Source of the DNA: Suttonella sp. R2A3
GTDB taxonomy: Bacteria > Pseudomonadota > Gammaproteobacteria > Cardiobacteriales > Cardiobacteriaceae
DNA length: 64,000 bases
Direction of reading: 5' to 3'
Assembly: GCF_021513215.1 (NCBI RefSeq)
Contig: NZ_CP090975.1
Span: 303,501 to 367,500, forward strand
Below are positions 1,137-41,640 of the stretch, in pieces; within the stretch, counting starts at the first letter, position 1; the number at the start of each line of letters is the position of its first letter. The translations under genes were made by a program, and so were the position numbers. Under the pieces are notes generated by a model. The model was not told where the DNA came from and made no database searches. It saw only the letters and a list, made by a program, of their open reading frames with translations.

Positions 1137-2101
1137 TGAGCGACAAGCGATGGACGTTCTGCGTGGCGCCAATGCTCGATTGGACCACGCGTGAATGTCG
1201 CTTATTACATCGACAGTTCAGCGCGCATGCCCGACTCTACACCGAAATGGTCACCACAGGTGCGATTATCTATGGGGATCAAGCGCGCCATTTACGCTTT
1301 TATGAGGACGAACACCCGGTTGCGTTGCAGCTTGGTGGTGGTGATCCGAATGATTTAGCTCGAGCAGTAAGTTTGGCCCAACCCTATGGTTATGATGAAA
1401 TCAACCTCAATGTCGGGTGTCCAAGCGATCGCGTGCAAAATAACCGTATTGGTGCTTGTTTGATGGACGATCCAGCGTTGGTCGCTCGTTGTTTAAGCGC
1501 CATGCAGCAAGAGAGTGATGTCCCTGTTACGGTTAAGCATCGCTTAGCGATCGATGAGCAAGATGAGCGGGATGTATTAGCATTTGTTGATCAAGTAGCT
1601 AGCGAAAGTGCGTGTCGGGTGTTTATCATCCATGCACGCAAAGCTTGGCTTGATGGACTCAGCCCGAAAGCGAACCGTGATATACCACCGCTTAATTATG
1701 AGTTGGTGTATGAATTGAAAGCGCGATTTCCCGAACTGACCATCATACTCAACGGCGGTATCAACTCAATCACCGACGCTAAAGAACATCTGCAATACTT
1801 AGATGGGGTGATGCTTGGTCGAGCAGCCTATCAACAGCCTGAGCTTTTACTCGATGTTGATACACTTTATGGCGCAAATGCCCATCAATTATCAGACGTT
1901 TTGCCTCGTCTGCGAAAACAAATGGTGGAAGGGCTGGCTAATCAACTTCCATTAACCTATTTCACCCGCCACATGCTTGGTCTATTTTCTGGGCGACCTG
2001 GTGCACGCCAATTCCGAAGAATTTTAAGCGAAGAAGCACGAGCGCACGATGCCGGTATAGAGGTATGGGATAGGGCGGTAGTTGCAATACGCAATCATTA
2101 G
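1136..2101 (+). CDS. dusA: tRNA-dihydrouridine synthase A
   Basis: FMN/NADPH enzyme that reduces uridines in the D-loop of tRNA (U20/U20a in the DusA family). The 321-residue TIM-barrel protein opens with the phosphate/FMN-binding motif APMLDWT and contains NLNVGCPS with the catalytic Cys95. VKHRLAID and NGGI motifs follow, and the helical tRNA-binding C-terminal domain contains TRHMLGL. The length and the ending ILSEEA... fit DusA better than DusB or DusC. It starts on the last base of the dsbC stop and so is probably expressed with it. Confidence 0.93.
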   Translation: MSDKRWTFCVAPMLDWTTRECRLLHRQFSAHARLYTEMVTTGAIIYGDQARHLRFYEDEHPVALQLGGGDPNDLARAVSLAQPYGYDEINLNVGCPSDRVQNNRIGACLMDDPALVARCLSAMQQESDVPVTVKHRLAIDEQDERDVLAFVDQVASESACRVFIIHARKAWLDGLSPKANRDIPPLNYELVYELKARFPELTIILNGGINSITDAKEHLQYLDGVMLGRAAYQQPELLLDVDTLYGANAHQLSDVLPRLRKQMVEGLANQLPLTYFTRHMLGLFSGRPGARQFRRILSEEARAHDAGIEVWDRAVVAIRNH

Positions 2102-2219
2102 GCAATATGATGATAAAACCCGGCTAAATTCCCGCATGATTGAGTTAAAGATGCTGCGCTGATAAGGTTTTTTTGTTACGATAATGTTTCCATCTTTACT
2201 CCGATTAAAAGGGAATGAA

Positions 2220-3815
2220 ATGACCTTATCTCGTCACACCATAGACTTATCACCTTATGGCATCAACACCATTGCGATGCGCAACCTTCCTCCAGCAAAA
2301 CTTTACAGAGAAGGGCTACGCAGTGGTGGTGAGTCAGTAATTTCTTCAACTGGCGCTTTAATTGCCTTCTCTGGTGAAAAAACCGGGCGTTCGCCGAATG
2401 ACAAACGTGTGGTTGAGTTAGCGCCTTCTAAAGACAATATCTGGTGGGGCGACATCAACATACCTTTCCCTCAAGCATCGCATCAGAGAAATCGTGAGAT
2501 TGCGGTCAAATTCTTAGATCAATCAGACCGTATGTATGTCTTTGATGGTTTTGCTGGTTGGGATAAAGCTCATCGAATCAAAGTTCGTGTGATCACCACC
2601 CGCGCCTACCATGCCTTATTCATGCACAATATGCTGATTCGCCCAACCGCAGAAGAGCTTGATCAATTTGGCGAGCCTGATTATGTGATCTACAACGCAG
2701 GGCAATGCCCAGCTGATACCAGCGTTGAAGGGGTGAACACAGAAACATCTGTTTCATTGTCTTTTGAAGATCAGGAAATGGTTATTTTGGGTACAGAATA
2801 CGCCGGGGAGATGAAAAAAGGCGTATTCACGATCATGAATTATCTAATGCCGCTAAAAGGTGAGCTTTCGATGCACTGTTCAGCGACCGCTGAAACGGGC
2901 GCGGCTCGCTCAGCCATCCTCTTTGGTTTATCCGGTACGGGTAAAACCACCTTATCAGCGGATCCTAATCGTGAGTTGATTGGTGATGATGAACACGTTT
3001 GGACCAACCAGGGCGTATTTAACATCGAAGGCGGCTGTTACGCTAAAGTCATCGATCTCTCTGAAGAAAAAGAACCGGATATTTTCCGCGCGTTGAAATT
3101 TAACGCCGTGCTGGAAAATGTGGTTTATGACGAAGAGCATGTGGTGGACTACACCGATATTTCGATCACCGAAAACACCCGTGGCAGTTATCCAATTGAG
3201 CATATTCCTAATGCGCGTATTCCTTGTGTAGCCGGACAGCCAAGCGATGTGATTTTCCTCACCTGTGACGCGTTTGGTGTGTTACCACCAGTGGCTAAAC
3301 TCACCCCAGCACAGGCGATGTTCCACTTTATCTCTGGTTACACCGCTAAAGTGGCCGGTACAGAAGTGGGCATTACCGAACCACAAGCAACATTCTCTGC
3401 GTGTTTTGGCGCACCATTTATGGTTTGGCATCCAACCAAATACGCGGAATTATTGGCTGAAAAAATCCAACAACATCAAGTGAATGTGTGGTTGGTGAAT
3501 ACCGGCTGGTCTGGTGGCGCTTATGGCGTCGGCTCACGTATCAAGCTTAAATATTCGCGCGCGATTATTGATGCGATTAACAAAGGTGAGCTCGCGCATG
3601 CACCAACCCAACAAGACCCGCGCTTTGGCTTCAGTATTGTCACGAAATGCAGCAATGTGCCAGATGAGATTTTAGATCCGCATAACGCCTGGGCTGATAA
3701 AGCGGCTTATGAGATGCAAGCCAACCAGCTTGCTGAAATGTTCAATCAGAACTTTGAGAAATATAGTGCGCAGGCTGCCGATGATATCAAAGCCGCTGCA
3801 CCAAAAATCTTGTAA
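2220..3815 (+). CDS. pckA: Phosphoenolpyruvate carboxykinase (ATP)
   Basis: Converts oxaloacetate plus ATP to PEP and CO2, the entry to gluconeogenesis from C4 acids; cytoplasmic. The protein has the PEPCK-specific P-loop GLSGTGKTTLS (about residues 236-246), the metal-binding motif ELIGDDEHVW, and substrate-site motifs TGRSPNDKR and NTGWSGG. The start at 2220 gives 531 residues, near the usual 540; it has AAGGGA at 2209-2214. A longer in-frame start at 2184 would add 12 residues without support. A strong terminator follows at once, so the gene is probably monocistronic. The dctPQM dicarboxylate importer at 58.7-61.8 kb would feed the same pathway. Confidence 0.96.
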   Translation: MTLSRHTIDLSPYGINTIAMRNLPPAKLYREGLRSGGESVISSTGALIAFSGEKTGRSPNDKRVVELAPSKDNIWWGDINIPFPQASHQRNREIAVKFLDQSDRMYVFDGFAGWDKAHRIKVRVITTRAYHALFMHNMLIRPTAEELDQFGEPDYVIYNAGQCPADTSVEGVNTETSVSLSFEDQEMVILGTEYAGEMKKGVFTIMNYLMPLKGELSMHCSATAETGAARSAILFGLSGTGKTTLSADPNRELIGDDEHVWTNQGVFNIEGGCYAKVIDLSEEKEPDIFRALKFNAVLENVVYDEEHVVDYTDISITENTRGSYPIEHIPNARIPCVAGQPSDVIFLTCDAFGVLPPVAKLTPAQAMFHFISGYTAKVAGTEVGITEPQATFSACFGAPFMVWHPTKYAELLAEKIQQHQVNVWLVNTGWSGGAYGVGSRIKLKYSRAIIDAINKGELAHAPTQQDPRFGFSIVTKCSNVPDEILDPHNAWADKAAYEMQANQLAEMFNQNFEKYSAQAADDIKAAAPKIL

Positions 3816-35854: not shown

Positions 35855-37246
35855 TTATTGACGTCCCGGCCGAAAAACATTCAACTCCTGCCATTGTGGT
35901 GTGAGATCAGGCATGATCTGAGTCTGCAGCCAAGTTTCAGAGATAGCGTCGTCCATTAGTCCCTGTCTTTGCAGCAGTCCGTACATGTTGCTGTCCTGTC
36001 CCTGCACGTCTCGCGAGATCAGTATCGTTATGTCTGGGCGCTCGAATGATGTAGATTCACTCGTTTGTTGGTTTTCTGATGAGCCGGTCGCCTGTGTGTA
36101 AAGTAGGTCAGCCAGTCGTGCAGGCCCAGGTGCCCAGTCATAATCGGGCTCGCGATAAACGGCTTCTGAGGCCTGCGCAGCCAGTATATCTTGCCAGTTG
36201 CCGCTAGGTCCATTAGCTTCTTCAAGCGCCAAGCAAGACTGACCAAAGCAATCCTCGGCTGCTGCCATTTCATCGCTGATGACGCGACGGCTGGCTTGGC
36301 GTACGTCAGCGTACTTGCCCTGCACCGGCCCCATAGCCAGACGCCAGCTCACGTGTGGACCACTACCAAAAATCTCACGCGGTGGCCAGTTTTCGCGCGC
36401 CACGTATTGGGTGACGTCCTCCCAGTGTGCGTTGCCTAGGTTATAGCGTGTGATTTCAACGTAGGCGGTGTCAATGGTATCGCAAGCATCAAAAACCTGC
36501 CGCTGGTAGTAAGTGATGTAGTATCGTGCGTGTGGGAGCACACCTTCCATAGCGTCGAAGAGCAACATCGCTCTGGTCACCGTGCCCAGATCAGCATCTG
36601 GCATCATGACAGACTGACCTGCCCCAGGAAAACGTGCGGTTGTGTAGAACTGATCCCAGTCCATTTCCGCCTCCAAATCCAGCGACTGATAGCCTGGAGC
36701 ACCAGTGAATTGGTCGGTATCAAGCTGAACTTGATCATAAAGCTGATCAGAGGTGGCTTCTTTTCCTCCACTGATGGTTATCACACCACATTCGGAACTG
36801 CCTGATGCAACCGTAGTGGCTGATGCAGGTGTAACTTCGGTGGATATGGAAGAAGCTGTATGCTCGCCACTGCTATCCTCGCGCAAATAGCGCTGCGCCA
36901 CCCAGCCGGTACGGGATGAATCGGCGCTATGCATCAGGCACCAGCTTTGAGGTAAATCGCTACGCTGCTGCTCGGTCATTTGCATCCAGTAGGCTTGAGT
37001 GACAAGAGGGACGCAGGTGACTTGCTGTAAGCCCCGCTCATTAGGCATAAAGGTGTTAATAACAGAATAATTCGTGCCGGGTCCCATGCGGGCATTTAAT
37101 ACATCATCTGCAGAAACACCACTTACACGCCAAGCATCAGGACCATGACCGTCTAGATCAGCCCACGCACTGGAACAAAGCAATATAAGCGCTGTACCAG
37201 TAAGAATGTCATACTGTCTACGACCAAAATTTGTCTTGATTCTCAT
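35855..37246 (-). CDS. Exported SH3-like domain protein of unknown function
   Basis: 463-residue exported protein. The start at 37246 places the signal peptide (about residues 1-29, ending SAWA) first; a GTG at 37273 is possible. Residues about 40-120 look like a bacterial SH3 domain (VLNARMGPGTNYSVI ... GWVAQRYL), often a cell-wall or ligand-binding module. The rest is not recognised: a Ser/Thr-rich linker, then a domain with several Trp, Tyr and Cys residues (DWDQFYTTARFPGAG, YYITYYQRQVFDAC). It is the third gene of the VWA-DUF2799-SH3 set, 72 bases after the lipoprotein gene. Confidence 0.75.
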   Translation of the reverse strand: MRIKTNFGRRQYDILTGTALILLCSSAWADLDGHGPDAWRVSGVSADDVLNARMGPGTNYSVINTFMPNERGLQQVTCVPLVTQAYWMQMTEQQRSDLPQSWCLMHSADSSRTGWVAQRYLREDSSGEHTASSISTEVTPASATTVASGSSECGVITISGGKEATSDQLYDQVQLDTDQFTGAPGYQSLDLEAEMDWDQFYTTARFPGAGQSVMMPDADLGTVTRAMLLFDAMEGVLPHARYYITYYQRQVFDACDTIDTAYVEITRYNLGNAHWEDVTQYVARENWPPREIFGSGPHVSWRLAMGPVQGKYADVRQASRRVISDEMAAAEDCFGQSCLALEEANGPSGNWQDILAAQASEAVYREPDYDWAPGPARLADLLYTQATGSSENQQTSESTSFERPDITILISRDVQGQDSNMYGLLQRQGLMDDAISETWLQTQIMPDLTPQWQELNVFRPGRQ

Positions 37247-37318
37247 AGTTATGTTATCTCTATACAGTGCCACGCAAGCGTAACGTGGTTCTTAGTGTCA
37301 TATCATTGTCATTGGTGC

Positions 37319-37849
37319 TTACATCGACCGCCGCTCAGCCCATGCCAAATCATCACGGGCTCGGCGCAGCTGATACCAAGTGTCCTCTAGTTCACGCCGC
37401 AAATGGCGTCTTACGCGATCATCACTTTCATTGTGAAGCTGATATTGGAGTTGCTCAACCTCGCGGTTTAGATCATCCACGCGACGCTGTGCGTCATACA
37501 CAGCCTTACCCTGTTGATACCAGTAAACAAAATCGCCTTCTAGCTGCGGTGGACAGACATTGCGGTAGGGGCTGCCAGCACGCCCTTGCGCCACGCCATT
37601 GGCCGGTGTGCAATATTGCAGCACACCAGCATCCCAGCCTTGGCGATAGCGCATAGCATCAGGAGCCATGCCTGCCTTGGCGCAGGCTTTACGGTGTTCT
37701 ATGATGCGAGTGGGTGCGTAGCCGTTACGGCCGTCTTTATAGCCCTGTTCGTTCCAGTTAGCCACCATACACTCTTCAACAGACATACTGGCGCAACCAA
37801 CCAAAGTTAGTACTGCAGCTATAGCCACACCTAATTGGCGATAACTCAT
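37319..37849 (-). CDS. DUF2799 lipoprotein
   Basis: 176-residue putative lipoprotein. The signal peptide has a lipobox ending LVGC (Cys19). The DUF2799 region carries EECMVANWNEQGYKDGRNG, HRKACAKAG, RYRQGWDAGVLQYC and a final Cys pair. The C-terminal 60 residues (DAQRRVDDLNREVEQLQYQL onward) are a charged helix likely to form a coiled coil. Function unknown. Its start overlaps the VWA gene stop by 4 bases (ATGA), so the two are translationally coupled. Confidence 0.82.
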   Translation of the reverse strand: MSYRQLGVAIAAVLTLVGCASMSVEECMVANWNEQGYKDGRNGYAPTRIIEHRKACAKAGMAPDAMRYRQGWDAGVLQYCTPANGVAQGRAGSPYRNVCPPQLEGDFVYWYQQGKAVYDAQRRVDDLNREVEQLQYQLHNESDDRVRRHLRRELEDTWYQLRRARDDLAWAERRSM

Positions 37850-39852
37850 GGTGTCACCTCGATGATGGAACGCCCCAACACAGCGGTATTACCTAAGTCT
37901 GAATAGCGAACTTCATAGCGACCTGGTGTATCTGGTAATGTGAATTCTTGGGAGGCATTGCCCGATACTTGGTGTGCCTCTAACCAGGTAAAATCCGCTG
38001 CGCTGGCCTCTGCTATGGCAATGCGATGATTAGCGCCTTCTGAATTTACGCTCCAGCTGACGGAAACACTCTCACCGACCTTGCCCTGAGTTGGAACGTT
38101 CAACCCAGCACCCGAATCTAGCGCAGCATCCGCATTAACCACTTCTACTGGTGTGTGAGCCAACGTGCGCAACCCTTCATTGAGTACATAACGTAGCTCG
38201 TACAACCCAGAATTGCCCGGAGCATTGAGACTGCTCTGGTGTTTATCGTACACGCGGATATACGCATGTCGCGTGCCTTCTTTAGCATCGGCTGGGACAA
38301 TAGTGATGAAATCCTGAGGGTTGATCGTAACGTCCCATTCAAAATCGAATACGGCACCATTAACAACCTGATCTGGGCCCTTGAGCGTCACCTCGCTATC
38401 GACCACCTCCACTGGTACGCGAGCCAACGTGCGCAACCCTTCATTGAGTACATAACGTAGCTCGTACAACCCAGGATTGCCCGGGGCATTGAGACTGCTC
38501 TGGTGTTTATCGTACACGCGGATATACGCATGTCGCGTGCCTTCTTTAGCATCGGCTGGGACAATAGTGATGAAATCCTGAGGGTCGACCACATTATCCC
38601 ATTCAAAATCGAATACTGAACCCATGGTGACCTCTGTTGGAGCAGAGATGTTCACCTCAACTCCAGTCACCTCTATCATGCGAGTCGCAAGATCTCGGCG
38701 GGAGTTGTGTAGAATATAGCGGATTTCATACGTGCCCGCTTCCGCAGGTAATTTGAGGTTGGCAGGGTTACCTACCCGCGTATAGAAGTTATGGATGTCG
38801 GCCTTGTTGTCGCTATTAGGCTTGAACACGCCAATGTAGTCATCCTTTTCATCGGGCCCACTCCAGATAACGCGCACGTGAGACCCAGCAGCAGCGCTGT
38901 TAGGCGCATCCAAAGATGCCTTCAGCTCAACCACTATGGGGATCGTTAGTTTAGTGTCGTTAGATTTCATCACCAGTTCAGACTCAGCGACAGCACCATC
39001 GACATAGCGCTCCACTGTCACATCATGAACACCAGGTGACAACTTAGCAGAGGCAACACCAGCTTCATCAGCCTCAAAGAGGATTTCACCAGTCACACCA
39101 TGGCGTACTGTCCAGTGCAATCCACTCTTGATGATGGGGCCGCCATCCTGATCAGTCGCCGTCAGAGTGACCTCGGCTTTGGTGACTTCCTTGGGCTCTG
39201 GCTCGGGCACTTTTTGTTCAACCTTTGCCTGCACTTGTTGCAACGCACCTTTGAGCTCTGTCGCGTTGCTGGCTGGCACGAAGATGCCGCCAGTGTTATC
39301 TGCAATACACGCCAACGCTTGGTTGCTCACTTCGTCCAGATCAAATCCGACCACATGTGCGGTAAAATCAACGCCTTTGGATTCCAGCTCTGCAGCCACA
39401 GCACAAGGGTCACCCTGACAAGATTCCAACCCGTCGGAGATAAGCACTACGGTAGCGTTGTTATCACGATATTTAAGCACATCAGCAGCATGCTTTAGTG
39501 AATCAGCAATGGGTGTTTTGCCTTTTGGATTGATGGCGTTGACGGTGGCGATAAACTGCTCGTGGTCCACCGGCTGCGGCGTGATCAGCGTTTCAATATC
39601 TCTGCAATCACCAGCGCTACGGTGCCCATAGGCGATCAATCCTAGATTAGTTTCTACTGGCCAACTTCGCACCAGATCGGCCATAACCTCACGAGCGGTA
39701 ACAATCTTGTTGACCCCATCGATCTGTCCCCACATGGACCCTGAAGCATCGTAAACGATGAGTACATCCTCAGCAGCTTGCACGGCAGATAGTGATGAAC
39801 ATAGTGCAAGCGTTAGAGATAGCGTTCCAGTTTGTTGAAAGCGTTTTTTCAT
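37846..39852 (-). CDS. Exported von Willebrand factor A protein with four tandem beta repeats
   Basis: 668-residue exported protein: signal peptide (1-26), then a VWA domain (about 27-215) with a complete metal site, D35-A-S-G-S39, the Thr in GKTPIADSL and the Asp in LISDGLESC, so Mg-dependent ligand binding is plausible. A carboxypeptidase-regulatory-like beta domain follows (about 225-310), then four repeats of about 88-105 residues, each ending in an EIRY/ELRY/EVRY strand. The two middle repeats are nearly identical in DNA and protein. GAGGGA lies upstream of the start. Likely role: surface or periplasmic binding scaffold; ligand unknown. Confidence 0.82.
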   Translation of the reverse strand: MKKRFQQTGTLSLTLALCSSLSAVQAAEDVLIVYDASGSMWGQIDGVNKIVTAREVMADLVRSWPVETNLGLIAYGHRSAGDCRDIETLITPQPVDHEQFIATVNAINPKGKTPIADSLKHAADVLKYRDNNATVVLISDGLESCQGDPCAVAAELESKGVDFTAHVVGFDLDEVSNQALACIADNTGGIFVPASNATELKGALQQVQAKVEQKVPEPEPKEVTKAEVTLTATDQDGGPIIKSGLHWTVRHGVTGEILFEADEAGVASAKLSPGVHDVTVERYVDGAVAESELVMKSNDTKLTIPIVVELKASLDAPNSAAAGSHVRVIWSGPDEKDDYIGVFKPNSDNKADIHNFYTRVGNPANLKLPAEAGTYEIRYILHNSRRDLATRMIEVTGVEVNISAPTEVTMGSVFDFEWDNVVDPQDFITIVPADAKEGTRHAYIRVYDKHQSSLNAPGNPGLYELRYVLNEGLRTLARVPVEVVDSEVTLKGPDQVVNGAVFDFEWDVTINPQDFITIVPADAKEGTRHAYIRVYDKHQSSLNAPGNSGLYELRYVLNEGLRTLAHTPVEVVNADAALDSGAGLNVPTQGKVGESVSVSWSVNSEGANHRIAIAEASAADFTWLEAHQVSGNASQEFTLPDTPGRYEVRYSDLGNTAVLGRSIIEVTP
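38157..38584. repeat. Near-identical tandem repeat inside the VWA gene
   Basis: 38157-38320 and 38421-38584 match over 164 bases with about two differences; the period is 264 bases (88 codons). Similarity continues more weakly on both sides. The repeats are in frame and encode the two middle beta repeats of the VWA protein. Confidence 0.9.
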
Positions 39853-40165
39853 ATCCTATCCCTCGTGCATATTTATTTGTTATTACTCGTATTTATTTGG
39901 GAAAGTCAGAGATCATTTACCCCCTGATTAAAATTATATTATATACTCTACTTATTACCATATTAACATACTAATGCGTATATATGGCAAAGGAAGAACA
40001 CGTATTGCGTTTACTGATATGAGCTGTTCATACAATTAGCCGTTGCTGGTAGTCTTTATTTTGTATGTTTCAAGGAGCAACACCCTCTTTTCACGGTTAA
40101 GTCAGTGTATAGTCCGCTACTTTATTTTGAATACAACACTGCGGAAATCCGCATTTAGAGCTTCT
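39853..40165. other. AT-rich intergenic region between divergent genes
   Basis: 313 bases upstream of both the leftward VWA gene and the rightward small membrane ORFs. It is strikingly AT-rich around 39935-39965, with several TATAAT-like hexamers on the minus strand, so it probably holds promoters. No -35/-10 pair stands out enough to assign. No gene seen. Confidence 0.5.
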
Positions 40166-40623: not shown

Positions 40624-41640
40624 ATGAACGTTAAAAAACTTACACTTTTAGTCAGTTTCATTTTCTCAACTGCCTTTAGCTCAGCCGCCTTTAGTCAGGT
40701 TGTATACCAGATTAGCGATTTCTCTGATCTTTACAGAGGTGAGTTAACCATCCCTGATGATTACGCGGATTTGAACGCTAAACAAGGTATTATCAACATT
40801 TATGAAAAGCGGTTTAACCAAAAAATAATAAGCACCCCATTTGATGGCTTGGTATATCTACCTAACAACGAAGGAACGTTTGATTTACATTCGTTATGGC
40901 ATTATTACTTAGATCAGCCCATTGTTATCTACGATGACCTCAACTTTGATGGCAAAAAAGATATAGCAATCATGCAAAGCGACCCAGCATGTAGCGACAA
41001 ATTAGCGTATTTGGTGTATTTGGAAACAGGTAACGGCCTTAAGCTCCATGAAGAACTTTCAAACCTCACAAAAGAATACTGCATGATGTTTGAGCGAGAC
41101 TTCGATACTCAAACGATAAAAGTAGCCACACCTGAGTACAGCTACCAAGGTAAATCTGCCGAGTACAAGGTTAGTGGCGACAAGCTTATCCTCTTAAAAC
41201 TTATTGAATACACACAAAATAAAGACTTTGTTATCAACAATTTTACCGCCAAAATCAAAAAAGGCGATGGTTTTGAAATCGAAACTTACGCCTATATAAA
41301 CCAGTGGGCTGATGTACAAGACGTACATATTTTAAACTTTAAAGACGGCAGAGTTATGCGCTTAATTAAGGTCTTTTCCGGCAGGGATTACATCATGTTT
41401 ACTCATACAGAGGCCGACGGTAAAGTGATAACAACCTACTCAGGCCCTTTTATTTACGATACGAAGCGAGACGTAATTACTTTTAGTCAGGACGGTAAAG
41501 ATTATCAACTCTTTAAAGACACTGTTCTTGTTACCACTAATAATGAACAACAACGCCTGGAAGCCTTGCCATCAGAGGATGCTGACTTAACCTACTTAAA
41601 AGCCATGCGAGATGATTTTGCAAATCTCGAATTTAGGTAA
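40624..41640 (+). CDS. Exported protein of unknown function with a calcium-loop-like motif
   Basis: 338-residue protein with a signal peptide (about 1-24, ending AFS). Residues 105-113 read DLNFDGKKD, a canonical DxNxDGxxD loop like those that bind calcium in EF-hand, FG-GAP and XAC2610-type exported proteins. The remainder appears beta-rich with repeated GDGFEIET/TYSGPFIYD strands. Two Cys near residues 120 and 160 could form a disulfide. No enzyme motif seen. A long 18-bp terminator stem follows. Confidence 0.7.
   Translation: MNVKKLTLLVSFIFSTAFSSAAFSQVVYQISDFSDLYRGELTIPDDYADLNAKQGIINIYEKRFNQKIISTPFDGLVYLPNNEGTFDLHSLWHYYLDQPIVIYDDLNFDGKKDIAIMQSDPACSDKLAYLVYLETGNGLKLHEELSNLTKEYCMMFERDFDTQTIKVATPEYSYQGKSAEYKVSGDKLILLKLIEYTQNKDFVINNFTAKIKKGDGFEIETYAYINQWADVQDVHILNFKDGRVMRLIKVFSGRDYIMFTHTEADGKVITTYSGPFIYDTKRDVITFSQDGKDYQLFKDTVLVTTNNEQQRLEALPSEDADLTYLKAMRDDFANLEFR

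Follow-up and report, generated by a model that had tools for sequence, protein, structure and literature searches.

A VWA, DUF2799 and SH3-like gene trio of Suttonella sp. R2A3 as a possible reduced form of a VWA-centred envelope module

Envelope proteins based on a VWA domain are known; of those studied by experiment, CglB, the gliding adhesin of Myxococcus, is the nearest in kind to the protein considered here. In this study, we examined a cluster of three leftward genes in a 64,000-nucleotide stretch of the Suttonella sp. R2A3 genome (contig NZ_CP090975.1, positions 303,501 to 367,500; hereafter the window), which encode a VWA protein, a lipoprotein of the DUF2799 family and an SH3-like protein with a C-terminal domain that we call X (SH3-X). 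CglB itself is a lipoprotein and has other partners, unlike the VWA protein of the window. It has been described as a VWA protein that is exported and has a metal site (PMC12282271); the window protein matches the CglB model of NCBIfam (NF033757) at 0.001 and 18.2 bits, far under the curated cutoff of 200, and by this measure does not belong to the same family. The Bat aerotolerance system offers a second comparison. The VWA head of the window protein shares its fold with BatB (Z 21.1, root-mean-square deviation (rmsd) 2.2 over 175 residues), but the MoxR ATPase of MoxR-VWA/Bat systems is not among the recurrent cluster genes, and the window protein is exported and carries immunoglobulin (Ig)-like repeats.

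A likeness in gene content is found in alphaproteobacterial loci such as those of Paracoccus aminophilus pAMI8 (L198), Sulfitobacter dubius (L196) and Devosia faecipullorum (L078), in which a membrane protein that we call MWDF, a VWA protein and an SH3 protein are accompanied by a molybdopterin-domain (Oxidored_molyb) protein, a histidine kinase and a response regulator. On plasmids, MWDF-VWA-SH3 loci are annotated merely as hypothetical or VWA domain-containing. These loci share with the window a VWA protein with a metal ion-dependent adhesion site (MIDAS) and Ig-like repeats, the same type of SH3 module, tightly coupled genes and exported products, and the VWA protein of L078 belongs to the VWA clade of the window. 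They differ in that DUF2799 intervenes between VWA and SH3 in the window, that the SH3 module there is joined to X instead of another C-terminus, and that neither MWDF nor the molybdopterin-domain protein was detected in the window's genome. Allopusillimonas ginsengisoli (L088) resembles the window in that its VWA, X and DUF2799 genes lie inside a 6-kb span, and of the relatives found, each ranks as the closest or nearly so. There, however, X lacks the SH3 module, the genes run MWDF, X, two others, VWA, and DUF2799 is convergent on the opposite strand, whereas the window has VWA-DUF2799-SH3X, all on one strand. The DUF2799 protein itself is like the lipoproteins of PF10973, a family also present in E. 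coli, matching far over the cutoff; unlike the window gene, other DUF2799 genes usually do not adjoin VWA.

The first-pass annotation of this DNA knew of no described system with this gene set. None was found in the literature either, with many subscription papers, indeed most of them, outside the coverage of that search, and no paper naming DUF2799 was found. Searches of PADLOC, PHROGs and NCBIfam recovered no known system; in PADLOC, VWA and SH3-X had no match and DUF2799 had one at chance level (0.045). This conserved locus of multiple parts, several of them from families that lack a model, appears to be undescribed.

We tentatively read the trio as a reduced version, gained by horizontal transfer, of a conserved envelope module that is centred on VWA and acts as a complex, a reading that we place a little short of probable. 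The three open reading frames lie where the first-pass annotation had put them, with the ATGA overlap of the first two at 37846-37849:

37846..39852, minus strand: VWA protein gene; 668 aa with a signal peptide, a MIDAS-bearing VWA head, one beta domain and four Ig-like repeats
37319..37849, minus strand: DUF2799 lipoprotein gene; 176 aa, lipobox LVGC, ATGA overlap with the VWA gene
35855..37246, minus strand: SH3-X protein gene; 463 aa from the ATG at 37246, with a signal peptide, an SH3b-like module and domain X
35855..36690, minus strand: approximate extent of domain X, from about residue 186 to the end; its C-terminal part is conserved with L088, L083, L080 and L190

Recurrence and ancestry of the cluster

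A VWA profile scan of species genomes supplied the best 80 VWA loci used here, the true total being larger. An SH3 module or domain X is present in 12 of these loci, MWDF in 17, and the molybdopterin-domain protein with a histidine kinase in 13. Twelve alphaproteobacterial loci, six from the VWA scan and six from plasmid records, have SH3 directly after VWA:

Tight VWA-SH3 loci (gaps of -4 to +2 nucleotides): L075, L076, L077, L078, L107, L131, L191, L192, L195, L196, L197, L198

SH3 also follows VWA in L234 (genome G693), where VWA is frameshifted. Among plasmid records with an SH3 or X match, VWA stands directly upstream of that gene in 8 of 10 (the arrangement in record H4 being judged from the coordinates of its VWA match), Croceibacterium and Qingshengfaniella being the records without it. 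Since strong SH3/X relatives (E < 1e-30) occur in just 5 of the 396 genomes of the phylum sample, chance neighbours among 80 loci would number far below one, against 12 seen, and the adjacency is thus not due to chance. Such recurrent linkage supports a joint function, which on these genetic grounds we regard as very probable for VWA with SH3-X and, with less assurance, as fairly probable when DUF2799 is included. A view of the linkage as a one-off, taken from the family (12 genomes) and the order (32), was overturned by the collection-wide VWA scan.

Domain X is separable, standing alone in Allopusillimonas (L088) and in Nitratireductor (L080 and L190), where by open reading frame calls it lies 8 nucleotides after VWA. 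In Roseovarius sp. A-2 (L083), an SH3-X fusion follows VWA at 0 nucleotides, and in G693 (L233) X adjoins MWDF and the kinase unit without VWA. As X occurs both alone and fused to SH3, the two are joined by a Rosetta-stone link. The linkage of the three genes noted in the first-pass annotation is borne out in part: VWA with SH3, VWA with X, and VWA with X and DUF2799 (Allopusillimonas) all recur, while the exact order of the trio does not and DUF2799 is rarely found by VWA. That three-gene view also could not take in the larger locus, with MWDF and the molybdopterin-domain protein, histidine kinase and response regulator, which recurs elsewhere and lay out of its sight.

MWDF is a strongly conserved, uncharacterised membrane protein of about 325 aa with many hydrophobic stretches and 78% mean column identity over ten sequences; it has no Pfam or NCBIfam match and no solved relative by sequence. 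It is located upstream of VWA, often divergent from the triad of molybdopterin-domain protein, sensor kinase and response regulator. In several large genomes of family f221, MWDF and VWA are on separate contigs, so that MWDF is not exclusive to the system. On a Roseibium aggregatum plasmid (L202), MWDF and the molybdopterin-domain, kinase and regulator unit stand without VWA, beside polysaccharide biosynthesis genes.

Within the host family, the VWA-repeat gene is confined to the genome of the window, a single 1.99-Mb contig (1 of 12 genomes). The congener, one other species of the genus having been sampled, has no such VWA gene, a DUF2799 gene by an ilvC-like gene, and a distant SH3 protein elsewhere. 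The cluster adjoins tRNA-Met-rimP-nusA-infB, where the congener and the relative G011 have a guaA-like gene; together with the trees, this suggests that the cluster was acquired horizontally. Its GC content at third codon positions (0.49-0.51) is at the upper end among 17 window genes, which proves nothing alone. In the VWA tree, the window groups with Alcaligenaceae CGII-64 (L074) and Allopusillimonas (L088) at a support of 0.999, inside an 18-member clade (support 1.0) most of whose members have cluster genes (SH3, X or MWDF). The DUF2799 tree, built with FastTree, likewise joins the window and L088 (0.999; 53% identity over 135 columns) and places the DUF2799 of the congener apart, and the X domains of window and Allopusillimonas are 40% identical. 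The matching groupings and the similarity of X indicate that these parts were kept together through rearrangement; the set shares ancestry with that of Allopusillimonas.

Some further arrangements were observed around these loci. In L234, the VWA gene consists of two overlapping open reading frames (1498-3346), an apparent frameshift in an otherwise full cluster. The plasmid loci L193 and L194 have SH3 without VWA, then an exported protein of about 185 aa, then a large protein that matches Big_5 and contains a metallopeptidase-like HEFGH stretch; in L194 this protein is split into two overlapping open reading frames. The exported protein, apparently one family (L190 5837-6382, L191 9798-10349, L193 9769-10359, L194 9828-10388), has no Pfam match in the L190 and L191 copies searched.

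The three exported proteins

Export of all three products, as the first-pass annotation proposed, is borne out by signals in the sequence, judged by eye: signal peptides in VWA and SH3-X, and a lipobox in DUF2799. In the VWA protein (Pfam VWA_2 1.4e-12, VWA 5.6e-11), the metal site that it had called intact (D35-S37-S39...T113...D140) is invariant in 28 of 28 aligned sequences, as are the cysteines C83, C145, C150 and C182. The protein thus has both the fold and the DxSxS...T...D site of a MIDAS-type VWA protein. Its AlphaFold2 (AF2) model is of good mean confidence (pLDDT 86.4), and the head matches solved VWA domains at Z of about 23, among them the VWA domain of the Porphyromonas pilus-tip protein Mfa5 (Z 22.4, rmsd 2.3 over 178 residues). 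When the whole model was searched with Foldseek, immunoglobulin and complement chains came up, but these matches reflect only strings of beta domains and were set aside. The four beta repeats noted earlier are Ig-like and run from about residue 309 onward, with an additional beta domain (226-306) ahead of them. They are pairwise 25-28% identical, except for repeats 2 and 3 (80% in protein, 85% in DNA); a core of about 160 nucleotides within window 38140-38664 is almost identical between the two, which points to a recent duplication or gene conversion. Elsewhere, VWA-repeat proteins with a degraded MIDAS stand directly before msrP/msrQ-like genes in L027 and L031, and the same gene arrangement occurs in L028.

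For SH3-X, the gene as such is real, while the GTG start at 37273 first assigned to it is probably 27 nucleotides too early. On the sequence, the ATG at 37246 is the most likely start: the GTG would put nine extra residues ahead of a good signal peptide (MRIKTNFGRRQYDILTGTALILLCSSAWA|DLDGHGPDAWRV), and the EIDGHGPDAWRV motif is at the same position in homologues. The SH3_3 match (PF08239; E 0.036, 14.7 bits) is under the cutoff of 27, and the family profile matches the SH3b structures 2krs (1e-4) and 8b2h (6e-3). The window protein scores 5e-60 against the SH3-module profile, one of whose eight rows it supplies; independent support comes from phmmer, at 2.5e-43 between the window protein and L078. 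The C-terminal domain was rightly called unrecognised, as neither Pfam nor NCBIfam has a match to X proteins. A Foldseek search with the SH3-X model returned no match below 0.001, the model being too poor to judge by, and a contig scan that used only the SH3-X protein gave no confirmed match, probably because the search peptides lay in fast-changing parts. The DUF2799 identity of the second protein is secure (PF10973, 4.3e-23, 82 bits against a cutoff of 25), and its LVGC lipobox and charged helical tail are as the first-pass annotation had them; it has no solved structural relative by sequence.

Taking the ATG at 37246 as the SH3 start, DUF2799 and SH3 are 72 nucleotides apart. Upstream of the cluster we found:

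39938..39966, minus strand: promoter-like site TTAATA-17-TATAAT, sigma-70-like, a consensus match only

Promoter-like sites in the region are not more frequent than in shuffles, and no minus-strand terminator-like sites were found between the three genes. The site and the lack of internal terminator-like sites are consistent with a single operon and are no proof of one. The divergent neighbour of the cluster (window 40624-41640) lies in AT-rich DNA (GC 0.38), and its product belongs to the XAC2610 family.

A proposed envelope module and its alternatives

In the module that we propose, the VWA protein would be a rod-like scaffold whose MIDAS head binds a partner or surface ligand via a divalent metal, with the Ig-like repeats as a spacer giving reach. 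SH3-X may tether it to peptidoglycan through the SH3b module, X binding the VWA protein or its ligand, and the DUF2799 lipoprotein may anchor or cap the complex at the outer membrane. In the more complete alphaproteobacterial loci, MWDF would be the inner-membrane part, and the unit of molybdopterin-domain protein, histidine kinase and response regulator would control or sense the complex. The physical complex, its metal dependence, the anchoring roles, the ligand and the regulation are what we infer, and this specific topology is a tentative proposal, somewhat to distinctly short of probable.

The linkage noted in the first-pass annotation is weakened in several ways: the trio is absent from the rest of the host family, the exact VWA-DUF2799-SH3 order was not found outside the window, and DUF2799 genes and VWA-repeat genes are for the most part unlinked. 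Several findings also weigh against the proposed module. DUF2799 stands alone in most genomes, and its linkage to VWA amounts to three known cases. Beyond the window, DUF2799 is beside VWA in 2 of the best 80 other VWA loci, Allopusillimonas L088 and Lysobacter sp. A03, in the latter directly upstream of VWA and not closely related to the window protein. For some VWA genes of the window's clade (L074, L082 and L087), the flanking DNA retrieved contains no named partner, so that the VWA protein can function without such partners or with ones encoded elsewhere. In the window's genome, no MWDF was found by single-sequence search (without a positive control there) or by profile A2, and no molybdopterin-domain protein by single-sequence search, again without such a control. 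The SH3-X protein is poorly modelled (mean pLDDT of 53.7), and SH3b modules can have targets besides peptidoglycan.

Regarding the rarity of the DUF2799 pair, chance would give roughly 0.01 adjacent DUF2799-VWA pairs in 80 loci, and two were seen. This rough estimate assumes about 10% of class genomes with DUF2799, four neighbouring places and about 3,500 genes; it is indicative only, since the survey had not been planned with such a comparison in mind. In the class sample, DUF2799 and VWA-repeat genes are on different contigs in two other genomes and on one contig in no genome except that of the window; the DUF2799 genes carried by plasmids of Rhizobium sp. CB3060 and Tistrella are not near VWA. 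As to MWDF and the molybdopterin-domain protein, the failure to find them implies either that the window has a reduced form of the module or that replacements not linked to it are used. No gene for the molybdopterin-domain protein, a histidine kinase or a response regulator is among those adjacent to the trio, kinases and regulators elsewhere in the genome not having been searched.

The alternative that survives best, which we nonetheless consider unlikely, is a periplasmic unit for envelope or redox stress, in which the molybdopterin-domain protein and kinase sense redox state and switch on MWDF, VWA and SH3 to protect or remodel the envelope, the window being an orphan effector part under other control. 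This would suit the pairing of molybdopterin-domain protein and histidine kinase in 13 of the best 80 VWA loci and in plasmid loci, as well as the company that MWDF keeps with the kinase unit even without VWA, but it sits poorly with the failure to find the molybdopterin-domain protein in the window's genome. Some loci have a LuxR/HTH regulator adjoining the cluster instead, so that the redox unit is not essential. The VWA-repeat relatives beside msrP/msrQ-like genes (L027, L031) would also favour it, but these are distant and their MIDAS is degraded.

Less likely still is that the VWA protein is an adhesin displayed on the surface for cells or surfaces, with SH3-X and DUF2799 aiding export or display. 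A MIDAS head on Ig-like repeats resembles the architecture of an adhesin, CglB is a known example of a VWA adhesin (PMC12282271), and plasmids of marine bacteria associated with surfaces or algae are frequent among the carriers. Against this, the clusters showed no recognisable outer-membrane export machinery, nothing puts the VWA protein outside the cell, and the SH3 protein is predicted to be periplasmic. That three independent exported proteins are neighbours by chance in the window is very unlikely: the genes are not neighbours in the congener or family, DUF2799 is mostly unlinked to VWA and the exact order is the window's alone, but the recurrent tight VWA-SH3 coupling, the X-VWA linkage and the same Allopusillimonas set with matching trees speak against it, and for VWA and SH3-X it is already strongly disfavoured.

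The boldest form of the envelope-module reading, which we regard as doubtful, is a hitherto undescribed trans-envelope machine, partly plasmid-spread across Proteobacteria, that combines MWDF, a VWA-Ig scaffold, a peptidoglycan-binding SH3-X protein, an outer-membrane lipoprotein and a molybdopterin-domain sensor-kinase controller, and that might serve metal-gated adhesion or envelope sensing. On the module reading, three hypothetical genes would fall into a mobile module that is conserved and has defined components; for several of these (MWDF, X and accessory exported proteins) no family model exists. DUF2799, a widespread family that includes E. coli members, would gain the first recurrent genetic partner known to us, and non-pathogenic hosts with the full locus can now be named, for example Paracoccus aminophilus pAMI8, in which its function is directly testable.

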